This document shows, in pieces, positions 1 to 64,000 of a stretch of 64,000 bases of DNA; within the stretch, counting starts at the first letter, position 1; every line of letters begins with the position of its first letter. This stretch comes from Gemmatimonadaceae bacterium. GTDB lineage: Bacteria > Gemmatimonadota > Gemmatimonadetes > Gemmatimonadales > Gemmatimonadaceae. The translations under genes were made by a program, and so were the position numbers. The stretch is from assembly GCA_036496605.1 (NCBI GenBank), contig DASXKV010000003.1, positions 1 through 64,000 on the forward strand, in the 5' to 3' direction. The notes beneath the pieces were generated by a model. It saw only the letters and a program-made list of their open reading frames with translations, ran no database searches and was not told where the DNA came from.

Positions 1-1
1 C

Positions 2-3000
2 TACCGGAACTTCTATAACGGGGGCGGAGTCGCAGTCGCGGACCTGAATGGCGACGGCCTTCCCGAGGTGGTGCTCACCTCGAACGAGGAGGGGCCAAAG
101 CTCTACCTGAACAAGGGGCAGTTCCACTTCCGCGACATCACTAAGGCATCTGGCTTAACGACAGACCGGGCCTCGTGGACCACCGGTGTCGCCATCGCGG
201 ACGTGAACGGCGACGGCCTGCTCGACATCTACATCTGCCGCGCGGGGCCCGGGACGCCAGAGCAGCGCCCGAACCAGCTCTGGATCAACCAGGGCGTGGA
301 CAAGGATGGCATCCCGCACTTCAAGGAAAAGGCGAAGGAGTACGGCGTCGCCGACGAAGGCTATTCCACGCAGGCAGCATTTCTCGACTACGATCACGAC
401 GGCAAGCTCGATCTCTTCGTGATCGAGAACTCGCCGCGGTCGGTGAGCAACGCCGGCCAGCGAAATCTGCGCAGCGAACGGAGTCAATACGGCGGCGCGA
501 AGCTCTACCACAACGACGGCGGACATTTCAGCGACGTGACCGGGCAAGCGGGCATTTACAGCCCCGATATCGCCTTTGGTCTCGGGGTGGCCGTAGCCGA
601 TGTGAACAACGACGGATGGCCGGACATCTACGTCTCCAACGACTTCGCCGAACGCGACTATCTGTACATCAACAATCGCGACGGAACGTTCAGCGAAGTG
701 CTCGACAAGGAGATGCCCGTCGTCAGCTACTTCTCGATGGGTCTCGATGTCGCGGATCTCGAGAATAGCGGATGGCTCGACGTCTACACGACCGATATGC
801 TGCCGGAGGACCAGGTTCGTCTCGCGACCACCTCCACCTTCGAGAACTGGGAGACGTACCAGAGTCGCGTGCACGGCGGCTATCACCATCAGATCATGCG
901 CAACATGCTTCAGCGCAACAACGGTGATGGCACCTTCAGTGAACTGGGCCAGATGGCTGGAGTCGCGCGAACGGACTGGAGTTGGAGCGCGCTCATCGCC
1001 GATCTCGATCTCGATGGGCGAAAGGACATCTTCGTCACAAACGGCATCGCGAAGGACGTGACGTCCCAGGACTACATCGCCTTCATCGCGAACGGCGCGA
1101 CGATTCGCAGCATGACGAATGAGGGCCGCCAGCGCGCCGACCTTCTCAAGCTGACTGGCGCGATGACGTCCACACCGCTGCTGAATTATGCGTTCCATAA
1201 CACCGGCGGCTTGCATTTCACGAACGAAGCCGCGGCCTGGGGGCTCGCGACGCCGAGCTTCTCGAGCGGCGCGGCGTACGCCGACCTCGATGGCGACGGC
1301 GCGCTCGATCTCGTCGTGAACAACGTCGATCAGGAAGCCTTCATCTATCGCAACAACGCGCGCAAGCTGCATCCCGAGAATCACTTTCTCCGCGTCGCGC
1401 TGGCGGGCGACGGAGGGAATCGATTCGGTATTGGCGCACGCGTCACGGTGTACGCCGCGGATGACACGTTCATGCAGGAAGAGTCACCGCAGCGGGGCTT
1501 TCAGTCGAGCGTCGACTACGTGCTCGATTTCGGCCTCGGCGCCCACGCGACGGTAGACTCGTTAGGCGTGCAGTGGCCGACGGGCAAGGTCACGACACTT
1601 CGAGACATCGCCGCGAATCAGTCGGTGACAGTGCACGAACGCGATGCGGTGGGCAAAACACCAATCACCAATCACCAATCACCAACCACGCTCTTCACGG
1701 ACGTCACCGCCGACACAAAATTCGACTTCAAGCATCAGGAGAACGACTTCGCCGACTTCGATCGAGAGCCGCTGATGCCCAAGCTGCTCTCGACCGAGGG
1801 TCCTTATCTCGCCGTTGGCGACGTGAACGGCGATGGCCTGGACGACGTGTACATCGGCGGCGCGAAGAACCAGGGCGGCAAGCTCCTGATTCAGCAGCGC
1901 GACGGACGCTTCGTGAGCGCGAACGATTCGCTCTTCGCCGCGGACGCGATCTCGGAGGATCTCGGCGCCGTCTTCTTCGACGCGAATGGCGATGGCCGCC
2001 CCGACCTCTACGTCGTGAGCGGCGGCAACGAGTACAACGAAGGGGCAACGGCGCTTCAGGACCGGCTATACATCAACGACGGGCATGGAAAATTTCACAA
2101 GGCCGTCGGATATCTCCCGCCGGAGTCGTCGAGCGGCTCACGCGTCGTCGCCGCCGACTACGATGGCAACGGCACGATCGATCTGTTCGTCGGCGGACGC
2201 GTGTCGCCGTGGGCGTATGGCGCCGATCCGGAAAGCATGCTCCTGCGCAACGACGGCAAAGGACACTTCACCAATGTGACGGCGACGCTGGCGCCCGAGC
2301 TCCAGCACGTCGGCATGGTGACGGACGCCATGTGGCGTGACATCGACGGCGACGGGCGTCTCGACCTCATCGTGGTCGGCGAGTGGATGCCAATCACCAT
2401 CTTCCACAACGAGGGTGGCGGCCGCCTCAAGCGCATGCAGGTGAAGGGGCTCGAGAACACCAATGGCTGGTGGAATCGCATCATCGCCGGGGACCTCAAT
2501 GGTGACGGAAAGGTCGACTTCATTGTCGCGAACCTCGGGCTCAACAGCCTCTTCCGCGCGTCGCCTAACGAGCCAGTGACGATGTACGTGAAGGACTTCG
2601 ACGGCAACGACATCGCCGAGCAGATCATCTCGATCTACAATCATGGTGTGAGCTATCCGCTTCCACAGCGAGACGAGCTGCTCGGGGCGCTGCCGTTTCT
2701 CGCCTCGCGATTCCCGCGCCACAAGGATTTCGCGGGCAAGTCGGTCACCGATATCTTCACACCACAGGAGTTGTCGGACGCGGTCGTGAAGAAGGCCTAC
2801 ACGTTCGCGACGTCGCTGGTTCTCAACAAGGGCGACGGCTCGTTCAAGGTCGTGCCGCTGCCTGACGAAGCGCAGATCGCGCCGATCTATGGCATGCTCG
2901 CGGCGGACGTCGACCGCGACGGCCACACCGACCTGTTGCTCGCCGGCAACTTCGACGGATTCAAGCCGCAGATTGGGCGCATGGCGGCGAGCTATGGGCT

Positions 3001-3215: not shown

Positions 3216-3659
3216 CTATTGCGGGTTTTTCGCTTTCTTGGTCTTGACGACGATCACGCCATTCGCGCCGCGGCTGCCGTACATCGTTAGGCTCGCCGCA
3301 TCCTTCAGCACCTTGATCGAATCGATGTCGTAGGGATTGATGCCGCTCAAGCTGCCGTTCGCACCTGGCTGGATTACCTGACCATCCACGACATACAGCG
3401 GCTCGCCGTAGACGGAGTTCTGTCCGCGAATGCGCACGATGAGCCCGTCCGGACCCTGGAATACATCCACACCGGAGACACGACCTTGCAGCACTTTCTC
3501 GATCGGCTCATCCGGCGCGGGATGGATATCCTGAGACGTGACCGTCGCATCAGGGGTCGGAGCAGTCTTGGTGGCAGGAGTGCCGCCGTGCGAGCAGGCT
3601 GCGACGAACGCGGCAAGAAGCGCGGCACCCAGCAGACGATGTGACGAAAGCGACGGCAT
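3216..3659 (-). CDS. Stand-alone TonB-plug-domain lipoprotein
   Basis: A 147-residue protein with a lipoprotein signal (hydrophobic stretch then lipobox VAAC, Cys about residue 22) followed by a single TonB-dependent receptor plug domain of the SusC/RagA type: the patches IRGQNS, PLYVVDG, INPYDIDSIKVLKDA and YGSRGANGVI are the usual plug signature. No beta-barrel follows; full receptors of this class are about 1000 residues. A strong ribosome site (GGGAGGAA) lies 7 nt before the ATG. It is convergent with the upstream FG-GAP gene (4 bp apart) and divergent from the downstream one, sharing about 115 bp of upstream DNA with it. Role is inferred only: perhaps a periplasmic or outer-membrane-anchored adaptor for a TonB/SusC-like system. 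Confidence 0.85.
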   Translation of the reverse strand: MPSLSSHRLLGAALLAAFVAACSHGGTPATKTAPTPDATVTSQDIHPAPDEPIEKVLQGRVSGVDVFQGPDGLIVRIRGQNSVYGEPLYVVDGQVIQPGANGSLSGINPYDIDSIKVLKDAASLTMYGSRGANGVIVVKTKKAKNPQ

Positions 3660-3774: not shown

Positions 3775-6700
3775 GTGAGGCTCCGCACGTTCGGGATCGT
3801 TCTTGTGACCCTGGCCGCCGCGTCGTGCACGGCCAGGCGCGAGCGGCCAGCCGGGCCCCCGCTCTTCGAGTCGCTGTCACCCAGTGCGACGGGCGTCACC
3901 TTCATGAACCGGCTGCCGGAAGACTCGTCGTTCAACTTTCTCAGCTACTTGTACTACTACAACGGCGGCGGGGTCGCCGTCGGCGACGTCAATAACGATG
4001 GCCTTCCGGACCTCTATTTCACGTCCAATCTCGGCGCGAACCATCTCTATCTGAACAAGGGGAATTATCGCTTCGAGGACATCACCGATCGCGCCGGGGT
4101 TGCCGATTCCATCGGGTGGAAGACCGGCGTCACCATGGCGGACGTGAACGGCGACGGCTACGTCGACATCTACGTATCGGCCGTTGACTACCTCGCGATG
4201 CATGGGCGGAACGTTCTCTACATCAACAATGGCGACGGCACGTTCACCGATCGCACAAAGGAATACGGGCTCGATCACGTCGGCTACTCGACGCAAGCGC
4301 TGTTCTTCGACTACGACGGCGACGGCGACCTCGACATGTTCCTGCTCAACCATTCGACGCACGGCGATCGCGGGCGCGCGGCTCAGGGTACCGGCACGCC
4401 CAAGGGAAGCGATCGCCTGTTTCGGAACGACGGCGGCCGCTTCGTCGACGTGAGCGAAAGCGCCGGCGTTGCCGACCGCGCCGGTGCGTTCGGCCTCGGC
4501 GTCGTCGCGAGCGATTTCAATCTCGATGGATGTCCCGACCTGTATGTCGCCAACGATTTCCAGGAGAACGATTACCTCTATATCAACAATTGTAACGGAA
4601 CGTTCACCGAATCGGTTGCGAAGGCGATGGGCCATACCAGCCGCTTCTCGATGGGTGTGGACGCGGCGGACTTCAACAACGATGGCCGGCCGGACCTGAT
4701 CGTGACGGACATGCTTCCCGAGCGTGAGAGTATTCTCAAGAGCTCGGCGAGCACCGAGAGCGTCGATCTCTTCAACATGCAGGCTCGCGCCGGCTTCCAG
4801 CCGCAGTACGAGCGAAACACGCTGCAACTGAATCGTGGTGGAGGGCGGTTCAGCGAAATTGGGTTCCTCGCCGGCGTCGCGGCGACGGATTGGAGCTGGT
4901 CGCCGCTGTTTGCGGATCTCGACAACGACGGCTACAAGGATCTGTTCATCACCAACGGTATCTACCGGCGGCCTAACGATCTCGATTACGTCAATTACAT
5001 CAGCAACGAGGCGATCCAGGCGTCGCTCGCCCAGGGGATCACTCGCGAGAATTCGGCCGCGGTGCTCGAAAGGATGCCCGAGGTGCCGCTGCCTAACTAC
5101 GCATTCCGGAACAACGGCGATCTCACCTTCACGAATGTCGCGAGCGCCTGGGGACTGGCGCAACCTGGCTTCTCGAATGGCGCGGCGTACGTGGACCTCA
5201 ACAACAGCGGCGCGCTCGATCTCGTCGTCAACAACATCAATGCGCCCGCCTCGATCTATCGCAATCGCGTGCGCGAGCTGAATCCCGGCGCCTCGCACTA
5301 TCTGGGCTTGCAGCTTCACGGTGCCCGCGGCAACACGGCGGGGATCGGATCGAAGGTGACGATCGTTGCCGGCGGGAAGACGCAGCTGCTCGAGCAGATG
5401 CCGACGCGCGGCTTCGAGTCGTCCGTTGATCCGCGCCTGCACTTCGGACTCGGGCGCGCGACGCAGGCCGATTCGCTCACCGTCATCTGGCCCGACAGAC
5501 GTTATCAAGTGCTGACGAACATTCCGGTCGATCGGATGCTCACGCTCGAGCAGGACAAAGCCGCGGGAAAGTACGCGTATCGCCGCGACACGACGTTCCG
5601 GCCGCGCTTCGCCGACGCTACGGCACGCTCCGGAATCGACTTCAAGCACCAGGAGAACGATTTCGCCGATTACACGCGCGAGCCACTGATTCCACATCTC
5701 CTGTCGACGGAGGGACCGGCGCTCGCCGTCGGCGACGTCAACGGAGATGGGCTCGACGACATCTATGTCGGCGGGGCGAAATGGCAGTCAGGACGACTCT
5801 TCATTCAGCAGCCCGACGGCACGTTCAAGGAGAGCAAGCAACCCGCGTTTCAGGCCGACAGCCTCCAGGAGGATGTCGATGCCGTCTTCTTCGATGCGAA
5901 TGGAGACGGTCATCTCGATCTCTACGTCGTGAGCGGAGGGAACGAATTCTGGGGCGACGACGACGCGCTCCAGGATCGGCTCTACATCAACGACGGGCAG
6001 GGCAATTTCCATCGAGACACGCAGGCGCTGCCGCGATTCGCGGAGAGTGGCTCGTGTGTCGTGCCCGGTGATTTCAACGGTGACGGCCACATCGATCTCT
6101 TTGTCGGCCGGCGCGCGGTGGCGCGCAACTATGGTCTCACGCCACGCAGCTATCTGCTCGAGAATGACGGCAAAGGTCATTTCACGGACGTCACGCGTGA
6201 CAAGGCGCCGGCGCTTGCCGACGCCGGCATGGTGACTTCGGCGTCGTGGATCGACTACGACAATGATGGGAAGCTCGATCTCGTCGTCGTTGGCGAGTGG
6301 ATGCCGGTGCGCGTGTTCCGGCAAGAGCATGGACGGTTCGCCGATCGCACGCAGGCGGCGGGGCTCGCGGGTACGGAAGGCTGGTGGAATACCGTGTCGG
6401 CGGCCGACGTCAACGGAGATGGGCGCAAGGATCTCCTGTTAGGCAATCTCGGACTCAACTCGTATCTGCGCGCGTCGGCGAATGAGCCGGTGAGGCTCTA
6501 CGTCGGTGACTTCTTCTCTACGGGCGTGCTTAAACAAGTTCTCACGTCATACAAGGGCGGCGTCAGCTATCCGATTGCGGGGCGTGACGAGCTGCTGCGC
6601 CTCATGCCGCAGCTCCGAACCAGGTTCCCCACGTACGCGTCGTTCGGCGCGAGCCGGATCGAAGACATTCTCCCGTCCGCGGAGCTCGCGAAGGCGAAGG

Positions 6701-7089: not shown

Positions 7090-9551
7090 TCTCTTCTTGG
7101 TCATCCTTCGCCGTGCCCGCGCTGATCTTCACAGCGTCGATCGCTCACGCTCAGCGCGTCCCCACAACCAGAGACGAGTTACCGGTTCTCTCGCTCCCCG
7201 ATCCAAGACTCGACGACACCAGCGCTTATCAAGGGTACAGCACGCGCTTCTATCGCGACTCGAAGGGGAACGTTTTGCAGGTGTATCTGCGTCGCAACGA
7301 AGGACGCGTCGTCAATCTCTGGGCCGATGCCGCCAACGAGAGCATCGGCCTTACGGTCCGCGACTCGGCCGGCGCGCCCGCGGCGGTCAACTGGGGCAGC
7401 GAGATCGCGCTCACGTCGGACTCCGGTTCGACGCGCGTCGTGAGCTATCACCTAACGACCAATAGCCGTGCGCTCCGGCTCGGCTGGTTCGTCCTCGGCA
7501 CGATGCGCATCGAGCGCGATTTTCAGTATTGGCGCAAGCACCTCGATCCCTTCACCGCGCCCGGCTTTCACGTCGCCGAGGAGGACTCTCTCGTCGCGCG
7601 GCTGAGCGGAATGCCTGCGGAGGAGCGTCGACGGGAGCTCGTCCTGCTGCATGCGAGCAGCATCACCGAGCTCCGTGGCCGGCTCGAGCCACGCGTGACC
7701 ATCGTCCATGCCGGAGCCCGCGACATCCTGCGGGTAACCAAAGCGAGCCTAACGGGAAGAAATCACCTTGGCATCGAGATTACCTACGACACGGCGCGCG
7801 TGAGCGGCAAGGTCATCGGCCGAGCGATTGCGCTCGACGCTCGCGGCGGTGGCCCTATCGATCTCGCCGTGCGGGTGGCGACGGATGCGCGGTCGCTCAC
7901 GCCGCTCAGCCGCGGCGAGATCTTCGATCGTGCGTTCCTGGCATTCGCCGACTCGGTCTCGAAGCATGACCCGCGCGTCGAGCGGCAACTGCGTGCCGTC
8001 GAGCTCCTCAGTTCGCGCGAGAAGCTGATGGCCGGGCTGCCAAACTTCGCGACCTACTTCGGCCGCGACCAGATGATGTCGTCGCTGATGATGCAGCAGG
8101 TATGGACGCCGACGATGATGGAGCACGTCATCGGCAGCGTGTTGCGCAAGCTCGCGCCTAACGGTGAAGTGAGCCATGAGGAGGCGCTCGGCGGCCAGGC
8201 GATTCGCGAAGGCGCCGCCGAGTACGTGCGGCTCGTCGACTCCTCGCGCGCCATGGCGAAGCGCGGCGCGGCGCGCGACGCCGAGGCGCTCGTCACCCGA
8301 GCGCGAGTCGTGATTGGCGATCTGGAGCGCGTGCGCGAGAACTATCACATGATCGACGACGAGTTCCAGCTGCCGGTACTCGTTGCGCGATATCTCGCCG
8401 ATCCGCGGCTCGACGCCAACAAGAAGCGCACCTTCTGGCGCGGGAGCGAGCGTGGTGTGCCGCGCCTATCGCTGCTCGTTCAGGAGCTCGAGGTCGTGGC
8501 GCTGCGCGCGGCACCGTATGCAGCGCAGCCGGACGCGACAAACCTAGTCGGGTTTGCCGCCCGTGACGCGACGCACTGGGAGTCGGAGAGCTGGCGCGAC
8601 AGCGGCGCGGGCTACGCGAACGGGCGCTTCGCGATGGACATCAACGCGATCTGGGTACCGACGTCGCTACAGGCAATCGGGGATATCATTGCGTCGCTTC
8701 GCACGCTTGGTCTCGCGCAGGGGGCTTCGATTCCCGGAGCCACGCCGGGACCAAACTTCGCGAAGTACCTCGCAGACCCGATGGCCTTGGCGAGCGCCGA
8801 ACGCGTGTGGTCGGGTGCCGTGCGGCACTTCGTCGTCAGGCTGGCACCCGCCGACGCGCAGGCGCGGATTCGCGCCAAGCTCGCGTCGCTCCCGGAGGTG
8901 GAGCGTGGCCACTGGATCGGCGTGCTCGCGAACACCGACGCCGATCGCGATTCCATCACCTTTCTCGCGCTCTCGCTCGACGCGGCGGGCCGTCCGATCG
9001 ACGTCGTGAACACCGATCCAGCGACGGCGCTTTTTCTCGCCGACTTGAGCGGCCGGGGGCAGGCCGCTCTCGATATCACGCCGTTCCGGAACATCGATCC
9101 ATTCGTCAGGCCCTATCCCGCGGGACTGTTCGTCGACCGGTTGGGTCCACTCGTCGCGAACGACGCGTACTCGACACCGGACGTGTGGAGTACGTTCGAG
9201 CGGGACCAGTACCACTCGCCGCGCGTCGTGTGGGGGCGGGAGGTGAACCTCATCACGCTCGGCCTGGCGCATCAGATCGCGCTCGCGGTCGATGCCCGCG
9301 GCCGTCCGCACGATCCGTCGCAGACGGCGTATGTCGCGAGCCTAACGAGCGCGCTGCGCAAGGTCCAGAGCGCGGTCGATGCCTCGGGACTGCGGCACTT
9401 CGAGCTCTGGAGCTACCGCATCCAGGGAGGGCAGCTCCAACCGGTGCGGTACGGCACGAGCTCGGACGTCCAGTTGTGGAACACGACGTCGCTGGCGGTG
9501 CAGTGGGCGTTGGACAAACTGCCGAAGTCGACGACGGCGGCACAAAGGTGA
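7086..9551 (+). CDS. Exported six-hairpin glycosidase-like protein
   Basis: An 821-residue protein with an N-terminal signal peptide ending near SIAHA-Q (about residue 22). The middle has the look of an alpha/alpha (six-hairpin) glycosidase fold related to glycogen-debranching or GH15/GH63-like enzymes: NFATYFGRDQMMSS, VSHEEALGG, MIDDEFQLP and FAMDINAIWVP are spaced as the acidic loops of that fold. I cannot name catalytic residues or substrate with certainty. Its GTG start overlaps the stop of the FG-GAP/ASPIC gene by 4 bp, so it is translationally coupled to it; together they suggest recognition and hydrolysis of a carbohydrate at the cell surface. It could also be an uncharacterised exported family that only shares the fold. 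Confidence 0.6.
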   Translation: MISSWSSFAVPALIFTASIAHAQRVPTTRDELPVLSLPDPRLDDTSAYQGYSTRFYRDSKGNVLQVYLRRNEGRVVNLWADAANESIGLTVRDSAGAPAAVNWGSEIALTSDSGSTRVVSYHLTTNSRALRLGWFVLGTMRIERDFQYWRKHLDPFTAPGFHVAEEDSLVARLSGMPAEERRRELVLLHASSITELRGRLEPRVTIVHAGARDILRVTKASLTGRNHLGIEITYDTARVSGKVIGRAIALDARGGGPIDLAVRVATDARSLTPLSRGEIFDRAFLAFADSVSKHDPRVERQLRAVELLSSREKLMAGLPNFATYFGRDQMMSSLMMQQVWTPTMMEHVIGSVLRKLAPNGEVSHEEALGGQAIREGAAEYVRLVDSSRAMAKRGAARDAEALVTRARVVIGDLERVRENYHMIDDEFQLPVLVARYLADPRLDANKKRTFWRGSERGVPRLSLLVQELEVVALRAAPYAAQPDATNLVGFAARDATHWESESWRDSGAGYANGRFAMDINAIWVPTSLQAIGDIIASLRTLGLAQGASIPGATPGPNFAKYLADPMALASAERVWSGAVRHFVVRLAPADAQARIRAKLASLPEVERGHWIGVLANTDADRDSITFLALSLDAAGRPIDVVNTDPATALFLADLSGRGQAALDITPFRNIDPFVRPYPAGLFVDRLGPLVANDAYSTPDVWSTFERDQYHSPRVVWGREVNLITLGLAHQIALAVDARGRPHDPSQTAYVASLTSALRKVQSAVDASGLRHFELWSYRIQGGQLQPVRYGTSSDVQLWNTTSLAVQWALDKLPKSTTAAQR

Positions 9552-13486: not shown

Positions 13487-13726
13487 ATGGCAGACGACAA
13501 ACAAGCCACGCCTAACGAGACAAGCGATCCGCCCATGGCTTCGACGGCCGAGGTCAAGGCCGTCGTCCAGAACGTGCAGCGGACCCACCGCGGGCGCATC
13601 AAGTGGGGAATCGGGAAACACACTGCCGAGCTTGCACTCAGGGCGCTGAACGAACCGCGGTCCGTGCTGCGGCGGCCGTCGTCGTCCAAGTCGCGGCGCC
13701 GAAAGAAGCACAAGCGACTGCTGTAG
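13487..13726 (+). CDS. Small basic protein of unknown function
   Basis: I do not recognise this 79-residue protein. It has an acidic/polar N-terminus, a middle part VKAVVQNVQRTHRGRIKWGIGKHTAELALRA (split here only for description: two helices rich in R/K), and a strongly basic tail (SSSKSRRRKKHKRLL). I start at ATG 13487; a GTG 18 nt upstream (13469) is in frame. Codon use resembles the neighbours. The basic tail would suit nucleic-acid binding, but that is a guess. The coding call itself is moderate because the GC content makes short open frames common. Confidence 0.45.
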   Translation: MADDKQATPNETSDPPMASTAEVKAVVQNVQRTHRGRIKWGIGKHTAELALRALNEPRSVLRRPSSSKSRRRKKHKRLL

Positions 13727-40458: not shown

Positions 40459-40533
40459 CGGTTAGCTCGAGAAGGAGTCTCCGTTGACCTAACGAGAGCG
40501 GATCTAGAAAGTCCAATCCAGAGAAGCGGCTCT

Positions 40534-47995: not shown

Positions 47996-48005
47996 GTGTG
48001 TCACG

Positions 48006-53758: not shown

Positions 53759-56257
53759 CTACTCGTAGCGTAAGGCCTTGATCGGATCGACCGTCGACGC
53801 GCGATAGGCAGGTAGATATCCTGCCGCCAAGGACACCAGGGCGAGCACAACCATCGCGCCGACCACGACCACCGGATCGTGCGCCTGGAGACCGAACAAC
53901 AGCGACTGCGCCGTCCTGCCTAGCGCCAACGCGACCGCCAGCCCGATGAGGCCACCGATCAACGTCAGCATCCCGACCTGCTTGAGGACCATCCATCGTA
54001 CTCTCGACGCATCGGCGCCGAGCGCCATGCGAACGCCGATCTCCCGCGTGCGCCGGGCGACGGTGTAGGCGAGCACGCCATACAACCCGACCGCGGCGAG
54101 CAACGTCGCCAACGCCGCGAACGCCGTTGACAACATGCTGATCATGCGATCGAGGTAGACGTTTTCGCGAACCTGCTGAGGCATCGTCTTCACCTCCTCG
54201 AGCGGAAGATTCGCGTCGATCCGCTTGAGCACCGCCGGCACCTCGCGAACGAGCTGCTCCGGCGACCGCGACGCGCGCACATAGTAGTGCATGTAGCCCA
54301 GCGTCGTGTCCTGCCGATACGGTGTGAAGAACAACGGCTGCGGCTTCTGTTTCACGTTTGAGTATGCCGCGTTGCGCACGAGACCCACGATCAACACGTC
54401 GAGCGTTTTCGCGCGCGGATCGAGCGACATCGACTTGCCGACCGCTTCGCGTCCGAGGTTGAACTTCCGCGCGAACTCTTCGTTCACGATCGCGACCTTC
54501 GGCGCGCCTGCGGCATCGCTCGTCGTGAATTCGCGGCCCGCGAGCAGCGGCACGCCGAGCGTGCGAAAATATCCGGCGCTGATCTCGTTGAAGCGCGCAT
54601 TGTCGTCGATATCGGGTCCCGACTTGAACCCTTCGACGGCGACGTCCGTGCCGTAGTTGCTGCCCGAAAGCAACGGCACCATCGATGCCGCGACGCCCGT
54701 CACGCCCGGCATCGCACCGAGCGCCTCTTCGGTTTGTTGAAAGAAGCTGTGCGATCGTGCCGCCGTATAGCCATTGAGCTCCGGCGACACGCCGAAAGTG
54801 ACGACGTTGTCGATCTGCATGCCGAGATCGACGCGGCTCACGTTCGCCAGGCTCTTGATGAACAGTCCCGCCGAGATGAGCAATGCCATCGAGAGCGCGA
54901 TCTGCGCTGTCACGAGTACGGTTCGGAAGCGCGTGCTCGCGCCGGCGCTCGACAGCTGACCGGTGTTGGCGCGAATCGTCGACACCAGATCGGGACGTGT
55001 GCTGTGCAGCGCGGGGAAGAAGCCAAAGAGTAATCCCGTACCGATTGCCACGGCGGCAGCGAAAAGGAGAATCGGCGGGCGAAGCTCGGCGTGCAGCACC
55101 GCGCCGGTGTCCCCTGGCAGGATCGCCAGCGCACCCTGTAGCGTCCAACGAGCGATGACGAGACTCACGAGGCCGCCCAGCACCGCGAGGACGCAGGACT
55201 CCGTCAGCAGCTGCACGAAGAGCTGCTTGCGGCTCGCGCCTAACGCCAGACGCACCGCCATCTCCATCGAACGATTCGCACCGCGGGCCAACAAGAGATT
55301 GGCGATGTTCGCGCACGCGATGAGCAGCACGATACCAGTAATCGCGACGAGGAGTAGCAGCGGCGTCCGCGTGCGCTCGAGCATCGAGCTCTGGCCGTGC
55401 GCGCCCGCCTCGACCGCGACTTGCTTCACACGAAAGCGAGCCATCGTCTTCTGGCTCATGTTCTGCTGCAACGGCACTTCGACATCGTTGACGATCGGCG
55501 TGTAGAGCGCGTTGAGCTCGCGCCGCGCTCGTTCGATCGTTACGCCCGGCCTGAGGCGCGCGAACAGATACAACCAATAGCTCGTTCGATTCTCGAATCC
55601 CTTCCAACCCGGCACCATCAATGCGCGCATCGTCACTGGAATAAACACGAACGGCCGGACGCCGAGTGTCGTCCCGTTGAACTCCTGCGGCGCCACACCA
55701 ACGATCGTCATCGATTGGCCGTTGACCATGATCTGATCGCCAACCACGTTGGGATTCGCGCCGAGATGACTCTGCCAGTACGCGTAGCTCAGCACGACGA
55801 CGAAGTTCGAGCCGATCTGCTCGTCATCGTGGGGCGACAGAAGCCGACCGAGCGCCGGGCGGATCCCGAGAACGGGGAAGTACGAGCCCGAGACGAGCAT
55901 GCCGTCGGCACCCTGCGTCTGTCCGTGGTACGACAGATTGACGCCGACGCCGACATGAGCGGCGATCCCCGTGAACGCTCTCTGCAATCGCTCGAGGTCG
56001 CGGAACATCGGATAACTGAACACCACATCGCAGTCACCCGCGTTGCTGCACGATTGCGATCCCGGTTTCGGACCGGGCGCGGCGAGATTGACCAGCTCCT
56101 GCGGCGCGCGCACCGGCAGCGGCTGCAGAAGCATTTGATCGAAAAGGGAGTAGATCGCGGCATTTGCGCCGATGCCGAGCGCGAGTGATGCAATCGCGAC
56201 CGCGGTGACGAACGGCGTCTTGAAGAGGCTCCGAAAAGCGAGCTCGATGTTCTTCAT
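53759..56257 (-). CDS. ADOP-type duplicated MacB/FtsX permease
   Basis: An 832-residue inner-membrane protein. Layout: an N-terminal helix (VTAVAIASLALGIGANAAIY), a periplasmic MacB_PCD domain, three FtsX helices (about 285-410, with NIANLLLARGANRSMEMAVRLALGASRKQL), a fourth membrane helix in the middle (RTVLVTAQIALSMALLISAG), a second periplasmic domain, and a second FtsX set (GLYGVLAYTVARRTREIGVRMALGA). This is the acidobacterial duplicated permease (ADOP) form, a duplication of MacB without ATPase. No ATPase gene is near. It probably drives export or envelope work with an ATPase encoded elsewhere. Confidence 0.9.
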   Translation of the reverse strand: MKNIELAFRSLFKTPFVTAVAIASLALGIGANAAIYSLFDQMLLQPLPVRAPQELVNLAAPGPKPGSQSCSNAGDCDVVFSYPMFRDLERLQRAFTGIAAHVGVGVNLSYHGQTQGADGMLVSGSYFPVLGIRPALGRLLSPHDDEQIGSNFVVVLSYAYWQSHLGANPNVVGDQIMVNGQSMTIVGVAPQEFNGTTLGVRPFVFIPVTMRALMVPGWKGFENRTSYWLYLFARLRPGVTIERARRELNALYTPIVNDVEVPLQQNMSQKTMARFRVKQVAVEAGAHGQSSMLERTRTPLLLLVAITGIVLLIACANIANLLLARGANRSMEMAVRLALGASRKQLFVQLLTESCVLAVLGGLVSLVIARWTLQGALAILPGDTGAVLHAELRPPILLFAAAVAIGTGLLFGFFPALHSTRPDLVSTIRANTGQLSSAGASTRFRTVLVTAQIALSMALLISAGLFIKSLANVSRVDLGMQIDNVVTFGVSPELNGYTAARSHSFFQQTEEALGAMPGVTGVAASMVPLLSGSNYGTDVAVEGFKSGPDIDDNARFNEISAGYFRTLGVPLLAGREFTTSDAAGAPKVAIVNEEFARKFNLGREAVGKSMSLDPRAKTLDVLIVGLVRNAAYSNVKQKPQPLFFTPYRQDTTLGYMHYYVRASRSPEQLVREVPAVLKRIDANLPLEEVKTMPQQVRENVYLDRMISMLSTAFAALATLLAAVGLYGVLAYTVARRTREIGVRMALGADASRVRWMVLKQVGMLTLIGGLIGLAVALALGRTAQSLLFGLQAHDPVVVVGAMVVLALVSLAAGYLPAYRASTVDPIKALRYE

Positions 56258-57234: not shown

Positions 57235-57591
57235 ATGCGCTACCTCTGCCTGATCTACGAGAACGAGAAGAGCTACGCGACCATGCCCAAGGAGCAGTCC
57301 GACGCGGTGATGGCCGATTACGGTGCCTTTACACAGGGCATCAAGGACAGCGGCCACTACGTCGGCGGCAACGCGCTCCAGCCGACACCTGCCGCGACCA
57401 CACTTCGCGTTCGGAACGGTAAAGTCTCGACGACCGACGGTCCGTTCGCGGAGACGAAAGAACAACTTGGCGGCTACTACTTGATCAACGCCAAGGATCT
57501 GAACGACGCCATCCAGGTCGCGTCGCGAATTCCCTCGGCGAAGTCCGGATCGATCGAGGTGCGGCCGATCCAGGAGTTCGGCGACGCCTAA
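57235..57591 (+). CDS. YciI/DGPF-domain protein, partner of ECF42 sigma
   Basis: A 118-residue ferredoxin-like-fold protein: MRYLCLIYENEKSYATMP, VRNGKVSTTDGPFAETKEQLGGYYLI (the DGPF mark) and AIQVASRIP. DGPF proteins are almost always encoded beside ECF42 sigma factors, as here (11-bp gap). Role thought to be in oxidative or antibiotic stress, not well known. Its stop TAA is part of a CCTAACG motif. Confidence 0.92.
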   Translation: MRYLCLIYENEKSYATMPKEQSDAVMADYGAFTQGIKDSGHYVGGNALQPTPAATTLRVRNGKVSTTDGPFAETKEQLGGYYLINAKDLNDAIQVASRIPSAKSGSIEVRPIQEFGDA

Positions 57592-57602
57592 CGCTTCTGG
57601 CC

Positions 57603-58832
57603 GTGCGCGAGCGTATCGACGAGATCTATCGCGCCGACTCGCGCCGCGTGCTCGCGACACTGATCCGCCTCCTCGGCGACTTCGATCTCGCCGAGGAGGC
57701 GCTGCACGACGCCTTCATGGCTGCGCTCGAGCGGTGGCCTAACGAAGGCCTGCCGCGAAACCCTCGCGCCTGGCTGGTGTCCGCCGGTCGCTTCAAGGCG
57801 ATTGACCGAGTGCGCCGCCGTGCCAACTTCGACGCGGCAGTATCGCGCTTCGCCGAGGACAAGGATCGCACGACACCGGCGTCGCTCGATGTCGAGGACG
57901 AAGACGTCCCCGACGACCGGCTCCGTCTGCTCTTCACCTGCTGTCACCCCGCGCTCAGTCCCGATGCACAGATCGCACTGACCCTGCGGGAGGTATGCGG
58001 CCTGACGACCGAGGAGGTCGCGCACGCCTTCCTCACGCCCCCGCCGACCATCGCTCAACGAATCGTCCGCGCCAAGGCGAAGATCCGTGACGCGCGGATC
58101 CCGTACGAGATTCCATCGCGCGCTGACCTTCCCGCACGGCTCGACAGCGTGCTGCACGTGACCTATCTGGTCTTCAACGAAGGCTACCTCGCCTCGTCAG
58201 GCAGCACGCTCACGCGCCCTGATCTCTCGCGCGAGGCGGTTCGGCTCGCGCGCCTGACGTTGGAGCTCCTCCCGGATCCCGAGGTCATGGGACTCCTCGC
58301 CTTGATGCTGCTCCACGAATCACGCCGCGCGGCGCGCGCGACAAGCGAAGGCGAATTGATTCTGCTCGACGATCAGGATCGGTGCCTTTGGAATCGCCAG
58401 CAGATCGCGGAAGGAATCGCGCTCGTCGAGCGAGCGCTCACCTCGCGGCGTGTGGGGCCGTACTCGCTCCAGGCTGCGATCGCCGCCGTCCACGCCGAAG
58501 CGCCTAACGCTGCCGCGACCGATTGGCGTCAGATCGTCGCACTCTACGATGTCCTGCTGCGCGTCGATCCTTCGCCGGTGATCGAGCTCAATCGCGCTGC
58601 TGCCGTCGCGATGCGCGACGGCGCGGCAGCAGGTCTCGCGCTGATCGATGGTCTGCTCGAGCGTGGCGAGCTGACGACTTACCTCCATGCACATTCAGCG
58701 CGCGCCGACCTTCTCCGCCGCCTCGGCCGCGTGAGTGAAGCGATTGCCGCGTACGAGCGAGCGGCCAGGCTCGCGACTCAGGAGCCCGAACGCCGTTTCC
58801 TGGCGCGTCGCTTGAGCGCGTTACGCACGTAA
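57603..58832 (+). CDS. ECF42-group sigma factor with C-terminal extension
   Basis: A 409-residue sigma factor, much longer than ordinary ECFs. Region 2 (about 1-75: LIRLLGDFDLAEEALHDAFMAALERWP, PRNPRAWLVSAGRFKAIDRVRRR) and region 4 (about 105-170: LTLREVCGLTTEEVAHAFLTPPPTIAQRIVRAKAKIRDA) are followed by a 230-residue helical extension (DUF6596 and TPR-like: HVTYLVFNEGYLASSG, ALMLLHESRRAAR, DQDRCLWNRQQIAEG, AAIAAVHAEAPNA). In ECF42 this tail controls activity in place of an anti-sigma factor. Starts at GTG 57603, 11 bp after the DGPF gene. Confidence 0.93.
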   Translation: MRERIDEIYRADSRRVLATLIRLLGDFDLAEEALHDAFMAALERWPNEGLPRNPRAWLVSAGRFKAIDRVRRRANFDAAVSRFAEDKDRTTPASLDVEDEDVPDDRLRLLFTCCHPALSPDAQIALTLREVCGLTTEEVAHAFLTPPPTIAQRIVRAKAKIRDARIPYEIPSRADLPARLDSVLHVTYLVFNEGYLASSGSTLTRPDLSREAVRLARLTLELLPDPEVMGLLALMLLHESRRAARATSEGELILLDDQDRCLWNRQQIAEGIALVERALTSRRVGPYSLQAAIAAVHAEAPNAAATDWRQIVALYDVLLRVDPSPVIELNRAAAVAMRDGAAAGLALIDGLLERGELTTYLHAHSARADLLRRLGRVSEAIAAYERAARLATQEPERRFLARRLSALRT

Positions 58833-58867: not shown

Positions 58868-61285
58868 ATGCGACGATTCATCGACGACCTCCGCGGCTCC
58901 GCTCGCGCACTTGCCAAAGTCCCGTTGTTCACGGCGGTCGCGGTCGTTTCGCTCGGCCTCGCGCTCGCATTGAACACGACGATGTTCGCCCTCGCCGACT
59001 CGGTACTACACCCCGTCGTGCCGTACGCGAACGCCGAGCGGATCGTGATTCCGTCCTTTCGTGGTGGCGACACGAAGCATCCCGTGCCCGCGGACGCGCG
59101 CTTTCGGGCGATTCAGGGCGGCATGCGGTCGTACGAAGCCATCGCCGCCTTCTGGCGTGTTCAGGCGTTGGTCCAGACGCCAGGCTACGCGGAGGACATC
59201 ATGGCCGTCGCTGTGTCGCCAAACTTCTTCGATCTGTTCGGTGTGCACCCCTTCCGCGGGCGCGGCTTCGACAAATCAGACAGCGGGGCGACGAGCACGC
59301 CGGGCGCCGTCATCAGCTATCGAATCTGGAATCGCCTTTTCGCGGGTCGTCCCCTGAGGGAGTCGCTCACGCTCGATGTTGGGCTGAACCGCTACACGGT
59401 GGTTGGCGTCATGCCGCGCAGCGTGCACCCGCCGTACGGCAACACCGATCTCTGGTTGCCGATTGATGCCGTACCTTCTAATCCGGCGATCGGTCGCTTC
59501 GGCCCGACTGCCGTCATGCGCCTCAAGCCGGACGTATTGCTCGACGCCGCAAAAGCCGAGTTGGCCATGGTTGGCGCGCGCCTAACGACCGAGCTCACGC
59601 CAAGGCACCCGCTGTCCACATGGCTAGCGCCGGTCGTCGCGTTTTTCTACGCGCCGCAGAGCGTCTTTCCGTCGTTCATCCTTGGCACGGTCGCCATGGT
59701 GCTCATCATCGCCTGCGCCAATCTCGGCACGATGATGATCGCTCGCGGTATCGCGCGTCGTAGGGAGCTCGCGATTCGGTTGGCGCTCGGGGCGAGCCGC
59801 CGCGACATCGCGCGACACGTTCTGAGTGAGTGCGCGGTCGTGGTGGGCGCCGGCGTCGCTCTCGGCCTACTGGTCACGCTCTGGGCGCTGCGCGTTCTCC
59901 CGCATTTCACCAGCGCCCGAGTGCCGCAGCTGGGCGATCTCGATCCAGCGCCCAGCTGGCGAGTGTTCGCCTTTGCGCTGACCACGTCGTTGGCGACGAT
60001 CGTCTTTGCTGGAGCACTCCCCGCTCTGCGTGCAGCGAGGACGGATCCCGCCCAGCCGATGAAAGACACGGCCGGCACGACGACAGGGCGGATTCGCGAC
60101 CGTTACAATCCACTAATCGTCATCGAAGTCGCGCTGTCGACGGCACTGCTCATGTGCTCAGGCTTGTTCGTGCTCATCGCCTTCAATCTCGCTTCGTTCG
60201 ACTTTCGCTACGACGCCAGGCATCTCGTCGTTGCGGATCTCGATATCAAGAGCAATCAGATGACGAACGCGGCCATCAGCCGGTTTTACGATGGAATCAT
60301 TGCGAACGGCCGAGCGCTTCCGAACGCCATCGCCGCGGCGACATATCATTGGGCCTCGCCCGATGGTCCGACTGTAGCCGCGGAAGAGGGAAAGAGCGGT
60401 GATACGTGGATCAACCTGAGGTGGTATCAGGCCGTCAGCCCGGATTTCCTTCGGACGTTCGGTATAAGGATTGTCAACGGCCGCGACTTTGCGCCGGGCG
60501 ACGCCCTCGGCAATGAGCCTGTGGTGATTGTGGACGAGGAGGCCGCGAAGCGGCTCTGGCTGGACGTCCACGATCCGGTCGGGCGGATGATGAAGCTGGG
60601 GAGCAAGGAATCGAAGGCGCCGTGGGTGCGTGTCATCGGTGTCGCGGAGGCCGTCGAGTACTTGCCGCGCATCGATTACTACCTGCCACCCGAGCCGATG
60701 ATTTACGCCGTGATACCGAACGACTCGTGGCGTTCGCGGAGACTCGTGGTGCGCGAAAACGCCGGCGCGGGCATGCCCGGACGCGCCGCGCTGGCGGTGG
60801 CGATGCGGCGTCAACTGCAAACAGAGATGCCGTGGGCCTGGTCGGTTCAGGTCCACCCGTGGCTCGACAACTACGAAGGTCGGCGGACAGATAGCACCTT
60901 CATCGCCTCACTCTTCGGTGCCTTTGCCGCCTTCGGCCTCGTGCTTTGCGCCGTCGGTCTCTACGGCGTGCTCGCTTACGCCGTGAGCCGGCGTCTCCGC
61001 GAGTTCGCCGTCCGCATCGCGTTAGGCGCGCGGCGACGCGACGTCGCGCGCCTCGTCACGCACGACGCCGCGGTCACTGCACTCGCCGGTGTGGCGATCG
61101 GAGCCTTCGTCGCCCTGTATGTGACACGCGCGCTGATGGAACAAGTGGTGATGATCGACTACGCGCACGCGATCGCGCTCGTCGCCGCCGAAGCCATTCT
61201 CTTCGCCGTGGCATTCGTCGCCGCGCTCGGACCGGTGCGACAGGCGGCGAAGGCGGATCCGATCGAAATCCTGCGCGCGATCTGA
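58868..61285 (+). CDS. ADOP-type duplicated MacB/FtsX permease
   Basis: An 805-residue inner-membrane protein of the same family as that at 53759-56257 but only distantly alike. N-terminal helix FTAVAVVSLGLALALNTTMF, a periplasmic MacB_PCD domain, FtsX helices with NLGTMMIARGIARRRELAIRLALGASRRDI, a middle helix (LIVIEVALSTALLMCSGLFVLIAF), a second periplasmic domain, and the second FtsX set (GLYGVLAYAVSRRLREFAVRIALGARRRD). I start at ATG 58868; GTG 58841 is possible. It follows the ECF42 gene by 35 bp and could be one of its targets. No ATPase near. Confidence 0.88.
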   Translation: MRRFIDDLRGSARALAKVPLFTAVAVVSLGLALALNTTMFALADSVLHPVVPYANAERIVIPSFRGGDTKHPVPADARFRAIQGGMRSYEAIAAFWRVQALVQTPGYAEDIMAVAVSPNFFDLFGVHPFRGRGFDKSDSGATSTPGAVISYRIWNRLFAGRPLRESLTLDVGLNRYTVVGVMPRSVHPPYGNTDLWLPIDAVPSNPAIGRFGPTAVMRLKPDVLLDAAKAELAMVGARLTTELTPRHPLSTWLAPVVAFFYAPQSVFPSFILGTVAMVLIIACANLGTMMIARGIARRRELAIRLALGASRRDIARHVLSECAVVVGAGVALGLLVTLWALRVLPHFTSARVPQLGDLDPAPSWRVFAFALTTSLATIVFAGALPALRAARTDPAQPMKDTAGTTTGRIRDRYNPLIVIEVALSTALLMCSGLFVLIAFNLASFDFRYDARHLVVADLDIKSNQMTNAAISRFYDGIIANGRALPNAIAAATYHWASPDGPTVAAEEGKSGDTWINLRWYQAVSPDFLRTFGIRIVNGRDFAPGDALGNEPVVIVDEEAAKRLWLDVHDPVGRMMKLGSKESKAPWVRVIGVAEAVEYLPRIDYYLPPEPMIYAVIPNDSWRSRRLVVRENAGAGMPGRAALAVAMRRQLQTEMPWAWSVQVHPWLDNYEGRRTDSTFIASLFGAFAAFGLVLCAVGLYGVLAYAVSRRLREFAVRIALGARRRDVARLVTHDAAVTALAGVAIGAFVALYVTRALMEQVVMIDYAHAIALVAAEAILFAVAFVAALGPVRQAAKADPIEILRAI

Positions 61286-61887: not shown

Positions 61888-61903
61888 GTCGTCGTTCCGA
61901 TCG

Positions 61904-62339
61904 TTAGGTCCGCACGCGCGCAACGGCGCGCCGAAGCCGCAATGATTGCACGACGCCGACGACGTTGGACGCCACCCAGTACAGCCCGACCCTGGGCGCT
62001 CAAGCGCCAGGCGACGAGAAAGGTGACTGCGGCGGCAAGGGCGGCGGAGGTTCGGGACGACGTCGACGCGGGCCCTGCCATGACGGCCGCTCCCGCGAGT
62101 CCCGCCGCAACCGACGCAACGACCGCATCGGGCTTGAACAGATCTCCCATCAAGAAGAATCGCGCCGCCCGTCTGGCGCTTGCCGCGATGGTCTGATAGA
62201 TCCCTGCTCCGATCGGCAACTGTATGAGCCTGCCGAGAGAGAGGACGACGATGCCACCGCCAAGACTTCCACCGCAAACGTGGGCGAGAGCAAAGAGAAC
62301 GACGCGCAGTGGGTCGAGAAACACGGACCAGAGCGGCAT
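61904..62339 (-). pseudogene. Broken YidC/Oxa1-like membrane insertase gene
   Basis: It starts at ATG 62339 with MPLWSVFLDPLRVVLFALAH, HVCGGSLGGGIVVLSLG, then jumps to RLIQLPIGAGIYQTIAAS and LMGDLFKPDAVVASVAAGLAG, which in YidC proteins lie about 40-50 residues further on, so an internal deletion is likely. At about 61990 one extra C (in GCGCCCAGG) shifts the frame; the end GLYWVASNVVGVVQSLRLRR, typical for the YidC C-terminus, is in another frame and stops at 61904-61906. One deletion and one frameshift make it non-functional unless the read is wrong. Confidence 0.75.
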
Positions 62340-62374: not shown

Positions 62375-63775
62375 TCACTCGGCGCCGAAGAGGGCCTTCG
62401 TCTTCGCCACGGCGGCGACCAGCGCCTCGACGTCGGATTCGTCGTTGTATACGTAGAACGACGCGCGCGCCGTTGCGGGCACGGCGAGTCGGCGCATGAG
62501 CGGTTGCGCGCAATGATGTCCCGCGCGCACGCACACGCCCTCGCCGTCGAGAATCGTGGCGATATCGTGAGGGTGCACGCCCTCGAGTGTGAACGAGACG
62601 ACGCCACTCCGGGACGACACGTCGCGCGGCCCGTAGAGCGTCACTCCGTCGACGGCGGAGAGCGCCGCGGTCGCGCGCTCGAGCAGCGCCAGCTCGTGTG
62701 ACCGCACGGTCTCCATACCTAACGACTCGAGATAGCCGCAGGCGGCGGCGAGGCCGACGGCGTCGGCGACGTTCGGCGTCCCCGCTTCATACTTGTGCGG
62801 TAGCACGTTCCACGTCGTCTGCTCGTCGCCCACGATCTCGATCATGTCACCGCCCATCTGATAGGGCGACATGCTCTCGAGCAGCGTGCGGCGGCCGACG
62901 AGTCCCCCGATGCCCATCGGGCCGAGCATCTTGTGTCCACTGAAGGCGTAGAAGTCGACGTCGCCAAGCTCCGGGCCGTCGAGGTCGAGCCGGAGATGCG
63001 GCGCCGCCTGCGCGCCGTCACAGACGACGATCGCGTCGCGCGACGCGCGTTGCCTGACGAGCGAGGTGATCTCAGCCACGAGATTGAGGGTGCCGAGCGC
63101 GTTCGAAACGTGGTTGAATGCGACGACGCGGGTTCGGGCATTGAGGAGCGACTCGAGCGCTTCGAGATCGAGACGGCCGTCACTCGTTAGGCCGCAGATC
63201 CGGAGTGCCGCGCCGCGCCGGCGCGCGAGCTGCTGCCAGGGAACGAAGTTGGCATGATGTTCGAGGGCGGTGACGACGATCTCGTCGCCGCGGGCGATGT
63301 TGTCGGTTCCCCACGCGCTCGCGACGAGATTGAGCGCTTCGGTCGTTCCGCGCGCGAAGATCAGCCGCGCCGGGTCGGCGACGCCAAGGAATCGAGCGAC
63401 ATGCGCACGCGCTTCGTGATAGCGGTCGGTGGCGCGGACGGAGAGTGTGTAGGCGCCGCGGTGTGGATTCGCGTTGTCGTGCTCGTAGAACGCGCGAATG
63501 GCGTCGAGCACGACGCGGGGCTTCTGCGAGGTCGCCGCCGAGTCGAGGTAGTGCAGGGAGGGATTAGCGGCGAGCAGCGGGAAATCGCTCTTCGGCGAAA
63601 GGCTTCGATGGTGGTCGGCACGCCGCGCGGCAGCAGATTGCGATTCGGGGGGGGCCCCCCGCACCGCTGACGCCGTTTCCGGGACGCTCTTTTCGACGCG
63701 CTCGTCTCGGCGCGCCGTTCTCGACGCGCTGTCTTCGACGCGCTCTTCTCGCCGTTCTGTCTTATGCGTGCCCAC
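62375..63775 (-). CDS. sufS: Cysteine desulfurase SufS
   Basis: A 466-residue PLP enzyme that takes sulfur from cysteine for Fe-S cluster building. Core motifs: LHYLDSAATSQKP, ANPHRGAYTLSVRAT, FARGTTEALNLVA, the PLP His in LEHHANFVPW, VVCDGAQAAPHL, the Schiff-base lysine in FYAFSGHKMLGPMG and the persulfide cysteine in VRAGHHCAQPLMRR. Start: GTG 63775, inside the end of the ferredoxin gene (14-bp overlap), with GGGAGG just upstream. That gives about 65 N-terminal residues of low-complexity R/E/V/S sequence before the normal start of the fold, which is unusual; a later start cannot be excluded. Part of a suf operon whose other genes lie upstream of the window end. Confidence 0.9.
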   Translation of the reverse strand: MGTHKTERREERVEDSASRTARRDERVEKSVPETASAVRGAPPESQSAAARRADHHRSLSPKSDFPLLAANPSLHYLDSAATSQKPRVVLDAIRAFYEHDNANPHRGAYTLSVRATDRYHEARAHVARFLGVADPARLIFARGTTEALNLVASAWGTDNIARGDEIVVTALEHHANFVPWQQLARRRGAALRICGLTSDGRLDLEALESLLNARTRVVAFNHVSNALGTLNLVAEITSLVRQRASRDAIVVCDGAQAAPHLRLDLDGPELGDVDFYAFSGHKMLGPMGIGGLVGRRTLLESMSPYQMGGDMIEIVGDEQTTWNVLPHKYEAGTPNVADAVGLAAACGYLESLGMETVRSHELALLERATAALSAVDGVTLYGPRDVSSRSGVVSFTLEGVHPHDIATILDGEGVCVRAGHHCAQPLMRRLAVPATARASFYVYNDESDVEALVAAVAKTKALFGAE

Positions 63776-64000
63776 CCTTCCTCCCTCTAACGAGCACTTT
63801 CCCGCTCTCCACTCGAACCTCGTACACCGGCACCGGCTCGATCGCCGGGCCACGGCGCACCTCACCCGTTAGGCACGAGTACCGCGCACCGTGCCACACA
63901 CATTCGATCGTCCCGTCATTTGACAATGTGCCGTCCGACAAGGGAAACTCCGCGTGCGTGCACACGTTGTGAACCGCACCGATTCGGCCCCGATGGTTGA
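63762..64000 (-). CDS. Rieske-type [2Fe-2S] ferredoxin (5' part outside window)
   Basis: The C-terminal 79 residues of a small Rieske protein; it runs off the window end. The cluster ligands are in CTHAEFPLSDG (Cys, His) and CVWHGARYSCLTG (Cys, His); the fold ends in PVYEVRVESGKVLVRGRKG. Small Rieske ferredoxins of this type are often encoded within suf operons of soil bacteria, where they may give electrons for cluster building. Its end overlaps the sufS start by 14 bp. Confidence 0.9.
   Translation of the reverse strand, partial: NHRGRIGAVHNVCTHAEFPLSDGTLSNDGTIECVWHGARYSCLTGEVRRGPAIEPVPVYEVRVESGKVLVRGRKGGHA

Follow-up and report, generated by a model that had tools for sequence, protein, structure and literature searches.

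What keeps an eight-base word spread over a whole stretch of bacterial DNA? The question is raised by a window of 64,000 nucleotides (the whole stretch analysed) from a Gemmatimonadaceae bacterium: positions 1 to 64,000, forward strand, of contig DASXKV010000003.1, assembly GCA_036496605.1. Throughout this window recurs the octamer CGTTAGGC, or GCCTAACG when read on the other strand. We propose that this octamer, together with the variant CGTTAGGT tolerated in the same genome, is probably a DNA uptake signal. It would have an independent origin and be a third case of such signals, outside Pseudomonadota.

In the window (G+C of 64.1%), the heptamer CGTTAGG occurs 24 times and its complement CCTAACG 30 times. 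The sum of 54 agrees with the roughly 54 copies that a sequence-only reading had counted by eye. The full octamer accounts for 44 of them (20 + 24). The remaining ten consist of nine CGTTAGGT and one CGTTAGGG. The expectation of 7-8 copies from composition, given by the same reading, was too high. For CGTTAGG on both strands, Markov models give 2.6 (order 2) or 5.2 (order 3). Under orders 1, 2 and 3, CGTTAGGC ranks first among the 8-mers of the window; among the 7-mers, GTTAGGC is first and CGTTAGG second. Orders of 4 or more strip most of the excess and leave little of the motif visible, in the window and in the 456-kb sample described below, since most occurrences of these hexamers belong to the motif itself (of the 61 GTTAGG hexamers of the window, 54 are part of CGTTAGG).

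The genome of the window (G000; 5.97 Mb in 70 contigs) contains 3,411 copies of CGTTAGGC. The strand counts, 1,661 and 1,750, do not differ (p = 0.13). The word read backwards, used as a control, has 408 copies (211 + 197). We also examined a sample of 456 kb, formed by the window and 392 kb from contigs C35, C2 and C1. It holds 239 octamers, about one per 1.9 kb, against 6.2 (order 2) or 11.8 (order 3) expected, and CGTTAGGC is the top octamer in both models. With an order-4 model, 93.5 copies are expected and the word ranks fifth. A genome-wide count near the Markov expectation, or an enrichment limited to the window, had been named beforehand as outcomes that would speak against a function. 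The counts show neither of them. The enrichment is real and genome-wide.

The position of the octamers relative to genes was analysed with a simple in-house gene caller, not Prodigal. In the 456 kb (92.1% coding), 219 of the 239 octamers lie wholly in called genes; of the rest, 7 fall on gene edges and 13 are intergenic. They follow the coding fraction, without intergenic preference. Inside genes, 111 copies run with the gene strand and 108 against it. All four stop-free frames are in use: TTA-GGC (73), CCT-AAC (59), CTA-ACG (49) and GTT-AGG (38). The other two frames contain a stop codon and are seen at gene ends only. The earlier impression of equal orientations, genes on both strands and several frames is thus borne out. 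We then shuffled synonymous codons within 389 genes (200 rounds). The shuffled genes contain a mean of 9.0 octamers and a maximum of 16, versus 219 observed. Therefore, neither protein sequence nor codon usage accounts for the octamer. It is selected at the DNA level, as the sequence-only reading had held.

The same excess is present in a cultured relative. Genome G018 is Gemmatirosa kalamazoonensis KBS708, since its contig C3 is 100% identical to NZ_CP007129.1 over the 20 kb compared. A sample of 24 stretches (464 kb of 7.5 Mb) has 215 octamers in genes versus 9.6 after synonymous shuffling. Its large plasmids carry 12 octamers in 20 kb of each.

The conserved block is sharply bounded and consists of eight bases (239 copies of G000). 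The base on the 5' side is T or G in 69% of these copies, and the base on the 3' side is G or A in 73%. Farther out, one base six positions downstream alone stands out. The profile of 45 bases on each side in G. kalamazoonensis shows codon periodicity and more A/T three bases upstream. Distal AT tracts were sought around the 239 copies of G000 and 297 of G. kalamazoonensis, and none was found.

One-letter variants are also above expectation in G000: CGTTAGGT by 17.7-fold, TGTTAGGC by 8.5-fold, and CGTTATGC, AGTTAGGC and GGTTAGGC by 4- to 6-fold. The variants differ between lineages, with the reservation that some of the following samples are small: CGTTAGGT is observed 41 times (2.3 expected) in G000, 7 (0.6) in G013 and 8 (0.4) in G175, and zero times in the samples of G. 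kalamazoonensis (2.1 expected), G022 (0.5) and G032 (0.7). CGTTGGGC has 36 copies (4.1 expected) in G022, 60 (19.5) in G. kalamazoonensis and 40 (24.3) in G000. Finally, TGTTAGGC is found 39 times (1.0) in G. kalamazoonensis, 9 (0.4) in G022 and 21 (0.4) in G032, and is weaker in G000 (13 and 1.5). The motif-rich lineages keep the core and tolerate different one-letter variants. It means that the word has dialects, and this pattern is what an evolving reader would leave.

The distribution among relatives is patchy. Among the Gemmatimonadota genomes listed (395 searched, G000 included), 26 have 168-4,469 octamers and all the others 0-93. The highest value is that of G. kalamazoonensis (4,469); a search of 60 relatives gives 3,749 in G029. 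The positives belong to three families, and most genera are at background. Outside the order there is no positive among the listed genomes, the highest count being 67. Some genera are consistently positive (g1 3/3, g29 4/4, g26 2/2, g47 6/6). The exceptions are g21, with 3 positives in 4 genomes, and g40, which is mixed (G041 168, G043 11, G049 22). The odd genome of g21, G243, has 3 octamers, versus 2,745-3,754 in its three congeners, and its backwards control is low too. This genome may have been misplaced, or its composition may differ.

In a ComEC tree built for 50 genomes, with partial rows for G006 and G031, 9 state changes are needed to account for the 15 positives, and at least 6 of these are forced by well-supported branches. 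Therefore, several gains, losses or transfers took place. The motif-rich genomes nevertheless cluster: shuffled labels need a mean of 13.0 changes versus 9, and 3 of 500 shuffles are as low. Across 14 motif-free genomes (344 kb), the octamer is near background, with 4 copies where an order-2 model expects 2.7 and an order-3 model 1.0. Another dialect in the motif-free genomes was also considered. A scan of 10 of them, with 8-20 kb per genome, showed none; it left out G004, G007 and G010 (stretches below 8 kb).

The spacing of the octamers in G000 is near random (coefficient of variation 1.01), and close pairs are few. Pairs of CGTTAGG[C/T] less than 300 bp apart number 23 versus 47.2 expected in G000 (Poisson p 7e-5), and octamer pairs at this distance number 29 versus 47.7 in G. 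kalamazoonensis (p 0.002), where the Poisson expectations ignore frame constraints. Islands without marks were searched for through the long gaps and rejected. Gaps above 7 kb are not in excess (5 versus 3.5 expected), and the proteins of the largest gaps (10 scanned) are mostly housekeeping.

The density varies with the third-position G+C content (GC3) of the genes. Taking low GC3 as a proxy for recent acquisition, and noting that some low-GC3 open reading frames are possibly false calls that could affect the trend, the octamer density in G000 (337 genes, none shorter than 450 bp) rises from 0.346/kb in the lowest quartile to 0.774/kb in the highest. Control octamers with the same letters in other orders are flat across the quartiles (76-79/kb). 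The Spearman correlation between GC3 and density is 0.28 (p = 1.5e-7), and 0.04 for the control. The lowest quartile of G. kalamazoonensis (294 genes) has 0.406/kb and the others 0.67-0.71, again with a flat control.

The sites of the window are listed below by coordinates and strand; those without a remark are exact matches. Some positions quoted in the sequence-only reading were off by 1-11 bases (14389 is 14378, and 63186 is 63185).

1560..1567, plus, octamer CGTTAGGC
2563..2570, minus, octamer
3285..3292, plus, octamer
4971..4978, minus, octamer
7450..7457, minus, variant CGTTAGGT
7747..7754, minus, octamer
8156..8163, minus, octamer
9340..9347, minus, octamer
9856..9863, minus, variant CGTTAGGT; full octamer at the aligned place in G001, G002 and G018
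11128..11135, minus, octamer
12828..12835, plus, octamer
13510..13517, minus, octamer
13830..13837, minus, variant CGTTAGGT
14378..14385, minus, octamer
15269..15276, plus, octamer
16525..16532, plus, octamer
16609..16616, minus, octamer
17319..17326, minus, octamer
18675..18682, plus, octamer
20245..20252, minus, octamer
23245..23252, plus, octamer
25878..25885, minus, octamer
27900..27907, minus, octamer
28574..28581, plus, variant CGTTAGGT
31844..31851, minus, octamer
32389..32396, minus, octamer
36153..36160, plus, octamer
36465..36472, minus, octamer
37658..37665, plus, octamer
38360..38367, plus, octamer
38542..38549, plus, octamer; supplies the TAG stop of the major facilitator superfamily (MFS) gene 37219-38547 (plus)
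39947..39954, plus, octamer
40487..40494, minus, variant CGTTAGGT
40642..40649, minus, octamer
40960..40967, minus, variant CGTTAGGT
44098..44105, plus, octamer
44936..44943, plus, octamer
45568..45575, plus, octamer
46622..46629, plus, octamer
47096..47103, plus, variant CGTTAGGT
47654..47661, minus, octamer
48004..48011, plus, octamer; supplies the TAA stop of the extracytoplasmic function (ECF) sigma gene 48006-48518 (minus)
51783..51790, minus, octamer
55238..55245, minus, octamer
57586..57593, minus, octamer; supplies the TAA stop of the YciI gene 57235-57591 (plus)
57737..57744, minus, octamer
58502..58509, minus, octamer
59580..59587, minus, octamer
61020..61027, plus, octamer
61902..61909, plus, variant CGTTAGGT
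62717..62724, minus, variant CGTTAGGT
63185..63192, plus, octamer
63867..63874, plus, octamer

The motif had been said to supply the stop codon of at least four genes or gene remnants. This stands for the MFS, ECF sigma and YciI genes. It is not borne out for a supposed broken yidC at 61904, where only a 31-codon open frame ends. In the G000 sample, nine called genes terminate within CGTTAGG[C/T]. In G. kalamazoonensis, non-coding DNA makes up 12.5%, yet it and the gene edges hold 82 of 297 copies. Of these 82, 42 lie within 12 bp of a gene 3' end, where the word offers a TAG or TAA that can act as the stop.

The turnover of single sites was followed in orthologous DNA of two congeners, G001 and G002, over about 18-19 kb for each. 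The octamer is kept in 9 of 30 comparisons, a small sample in which both genomes are compared with the same part of the window and are not independent. The copies per aligned region are similar: 15 in the window versus 13 in G001, and 15 versus 14 in G002. As for more distant relatives, G. kalamazoonensis keeps 0 of 5 sites and has 3 copies of its own, and G029 keeps 2 of 8 and has 9. Relatives maintain the density, whereas individual positions seem interchangeable; this pattern argues against a site-specific regulatory role.

The genes needed for taking up DNA, a check suggested by the sequence-only reading, are present. ComEC is found in 56 of 60 relatives, DprA and HHH_3 in all 15 genomes examined for them (9 motif-rich, 6 motif-free), type IV pilins in 26 of 26 genomes and GspH/FimT (PF12019) in 49 of 60 relatives. 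They occur equally in motif-free relatives. A minor-pilin operon on contig C51 of G000 (about 144.9-151 kb) is the source of two FimT subfamilies, FimT-A and FimT-B. Several candidates for the receptor were tried and rejected. GspH/FimT does not follow the motif. FimT-B has a match (E <= 0.01) in 60 of 60 relatives, with strong matches in both groups. FimT-A has matches in 37 of 60; in Gemmatimonadaceae (family f1), those under 1e-10 come from 3 motif-rich and 8 motif-free genomes (G031 counted at 1.6e-10). The FimT ending SRLGR.R is family-wide and, by eye, alike in motif-rich and motif-free genomes.

The reading as an uptake signal is supported by the genome-wide density, the lack of strand or gene-orientation preference in G000, the use of all open frames, the dialects, the lower density in atypical genes and the competence genes. 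We infer a receptor that reads the word, a bias in uptake and a build-up of copies by transformation drive. A surface receptor of the type IV pilus or competence system would bind the eight-base word on free DNA. DNA of the same or closely related species would be preferentially pulled in, through ComEC, and recombined via DprA and RecA. Fragments with the word would be taken up and recombined more often, and therefore alleles that create the word would spread. Copies would accumulate on both strands wherever protein or regulatory sequence tolerates them. One copy per fragment would suffice, so that close pairs would not be favoured. Newly acquired DNA would have few copies, and lineages would drift to slightly different accepted words.

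DNA uptake sequences (DUS) of Neisseriaceae are on both strands and mostly in genes, and inverted pairs that form terminators are common both for them and for the uptake signal sequences (USS) of Pasteurellaceae. Selective DNA uptake is known only in these two families (PMC12616744). In Neisseriaceae, the DUS have a constant core with dialects, and some genomes of the same family are without DUS (Frye 2013, PMC3630211). All the dialects but one contain a stop codon in one frame (PMC3630211), and the DUS density is lower in islands (PMC7371117). The USS are of more than one type, with hundreds to thousands of copies, and their proposed receptor is the minor pilin ComN (PMC12616744). Like the DUS (receptor ComP), our octamer is a contiguous word with thousands of copies, a stop in one frame, dialects and a patchy presence within the family. 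Unlike them, CGTTAGGC/GCCTAACG is without the CTG core (PMC3630211), belongs to another phylum and nearly lacks inverted pairs. It shares with the USS the copy number and more than one word type. On the other hand, it has neither the GCGG core nor the downstream AT-rich tracts of their definition (PMC12616744), and eight bases only. Its sequence places CGTTAGGC outside both the Neisseria and the Haemophilus family. What it has in common with DUS and USS is the copy number, the placement, the dialects and a density that is lower in atypical genes. It also recalls HIP1 of cyanobacteria, a highly iterated octamer across genes, although HIP1 is palindromic and CGTTAGGC is not.

If this reading is true, a third unrelated case in another phylum would mean that uptake-signal systems evolve repeatedly. 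It would offer a fresh comparison for the origin of receptors, dialects and drive, with motif-rich beside motif-free genera and a cultured soil strain at hand. Natural transformation would be implied in a large, poorly studied soil phylum.

Several observations weigh against an uptake signal. First, no receptor was found: GspH/FimT, both FimT subfamilies, ComEC, DprA and HHH_3 are about equally common in motif-free genomes, in a test that covered a minority of the pilins. Neisseria DUS are biased to genome-maintenance genes; here, the largest motif-free gaps hold trigger factor, ClpX, IMPDH and SMC (10 proteins scanned). Terminator-like inverted pairs are nearly absent, with 0 pairs below 60 bp in G000 and 1 facing pair of 11 in G. 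kalamazoonensis. Pairs below 50 bp are not depleted in the latter genome (10 versus 8.6 expected), because of short tandem direct repeats. Single sites are not significantly conserved (9 of 30 versus 18.6% for octamers of the same composition, p = 0.15). The word is also present on a 21-kb mobile element of G. kalamazoonensis, of which 20 kb hold 17 octamers; part of this stretch is a duplicated segment. Unlike in G000, the in-gene octamers of G. kalamazoonensis run 148 with and 67 against the gene strand (p = 3e-8). We tentatively put this skew down to the TTA-GGC reading, which makes up 121 of the 148 gene-strand copies; 121 of the 168 TTA codons of the sample fall within the motif. Finally, the literature searched, which left preprints and most subscription journals outside, yielded no uptake experiment and no account of natural transformation or of uptake sequences for Gemmatimonadota. 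In a review of the phylum, the words "competence", "transformation" and "uptake" do not occur (PMC8779627).

The main rivals are a Chi-like role and a chromosome-organising role. In the first, a nuclease of the RecBCD/AddAB type would recognise one orientation of the word and protect broken DNA or load RecA on it. The octamer is like Chi in being non-palindromic and over-represented, with thousands of copies, mostly in genes, and few close pairs, and the skew of 148 to 67 along genes in G. kalamazoonensis fits as well. However, E. coli Chi is strongly skewed to the leading strand, and the FtsK-orienting polar sequences (KOPS), like Chi, have an orientation that is polar along the replichore. 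This polarity is lacking in the sampled G. kalamazoonensis chromosome (21 stretches), where the best split for any assumed origin is 149 of 264 (56%). Known Chi words are also G-rich. Moreover, 9 changes on the ComEC tree and a patchy presence between genera, most of them at background, are odd for a core repair enzyme. We regard the Chi-like alternative, which the sequence-only reading had raised, as unlikely.

In the second, the word would be the genome-wide binding site of a protein for chromosome organisation or segregation, or of a nucleoid-associated protein. About one copy per 1.9 kb, and the presence on the large plasmids and the small element of G. kalamazoonensis, agree with this. 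The absent polarity, the lack of intergenic preference in G000, the background level of most genera and the fall of density in atypical genes do not, and such a role is quite improbable.

A methylation site had also been considered possible; it could be of a restriction-modification, BREX-like (bacteriophage exclusion) or other kind. The length and the lack of palindromic symmetry would fit a type III or BREX site. Nevertheless, the single-molecule real-time (SMRT) methylome of the motif-rich G. kalamazoonensis gives methylation at RGATCY, ATGCAC and CCAGN7TCA only (PMC3974934). The octamer is no N6-methyladenine site in this species, while the methylome leaves 5-methylcytosine uncovered. This result contradicts the methylation alternative, and we give it very little credit.

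The word also coincides with a known recombination site. GTTAGGC matches the core of the integron attC site (GTTRRRY / RYYYAAC). An attC site has paired inverse cores about 50-150 bp apart around an imperfect palindrome. The octamers might be debris of integrons, that is, attC cores left by cassette insertions or secondary integrase sites. The exact fit to the core is in favour of it. Moreover, G000 has integron integrases on contigs C50 and C31, and relatives of family f2 have co-oriented octamer rows, spaced by about 0.4-2 kb, on contigs with an integron integrase match (G051:C109 above the cut-off; G036:C80 partial and below it). One attC-oriented pair of G. kalamazoonensis, 58 bp apart, has a hairpin between its facing copies and lies inside a mobile element. 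The arrangement of the copies speaks otherwise: they are genome-wide, inside genes, in both orientations, without conserved flanks or cassette structure. Pairs below 300 bp in attC orientation are rare (1 of 13 in G000 and 2 of 29 in G. kalamazoonensis; an exact search misses a variable second core). As a cause of the motif the integrase is rejected, since 34 of 60 relatives have it above the cut-off, whether they are rich in the motif or free of it. The debris explanation is largely refuted already by the arrangement of the copies and is highly improbable.

A functional link between the octamer and integrons is possible in another form. Gemmatimonadota would have a third uptake system based on the attC-core word, with a receptor that recognises free integron cassettes as well as its own genome; the system would be ancient in the order and repeatedly lost. 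We consider this combination rather unlikely. If true, a word identical to the attC core would link self-selective transformation to cassette capture, as the attC ends of cassettes carry the word ready-made.

Co-oriented CGTTAGGC rows are seen on G036:C80 and C95, G051:C109, G160:C5 and G137:C2. They are probably cassette arrays in uncultured Gemmatimonadota. The mobile element of G. kalamazoonensis (L052, G018:C1; 21 kb, high-copy) encodes an integrase and a DNA primase. The sole virion hint among the 10 proteins scanned is a weak tail-chaperone match below the cut-off, and the element may be a phage satellite. Its facing motif pair of 66 bases, with a hairpin between the copies, is found twice in L052 and once in L059; this pair may be attC-like or may act as a terminator.

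Other repeated words were found. The palindromic octamer ACGGCCGT occurs 46 times in 21.8 kb of Chloroflexi BJ8 (L378), and the palindromic TCGGCCGA 28 times in 21.7 kb of Anaerolineae ACE_NR_CHLO5 (L374), each palindrome being counted once; the expected values of 2.2 and 2.5 refer to a count on both strands, in which every copy appears twice. Both recall the cyanobacterial HIP1. Short tandem repeats with the unit TAGCCCC/CCCTAGC are present in the window at 13389 and 57216, and also in L079-L098; the one at 57216 directly precedes the start of the YciI gene (57235). Exact copies of CCCTAGCCCC are intergenic in 24 of 26 cases in the 456 kb of G000. An inverted array of GGTGATTGG and CACCAACC units lies at 19736-19815 of the window and recurs at many places of G001. 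Finally, L041 (G005:C1:1-20000) contains about 31 copies of a repeat with CTCCATTGAAGC and CAGGTCAAC, probably an array of clustered regularly interspaced short palindromic repeats (CRISPR).

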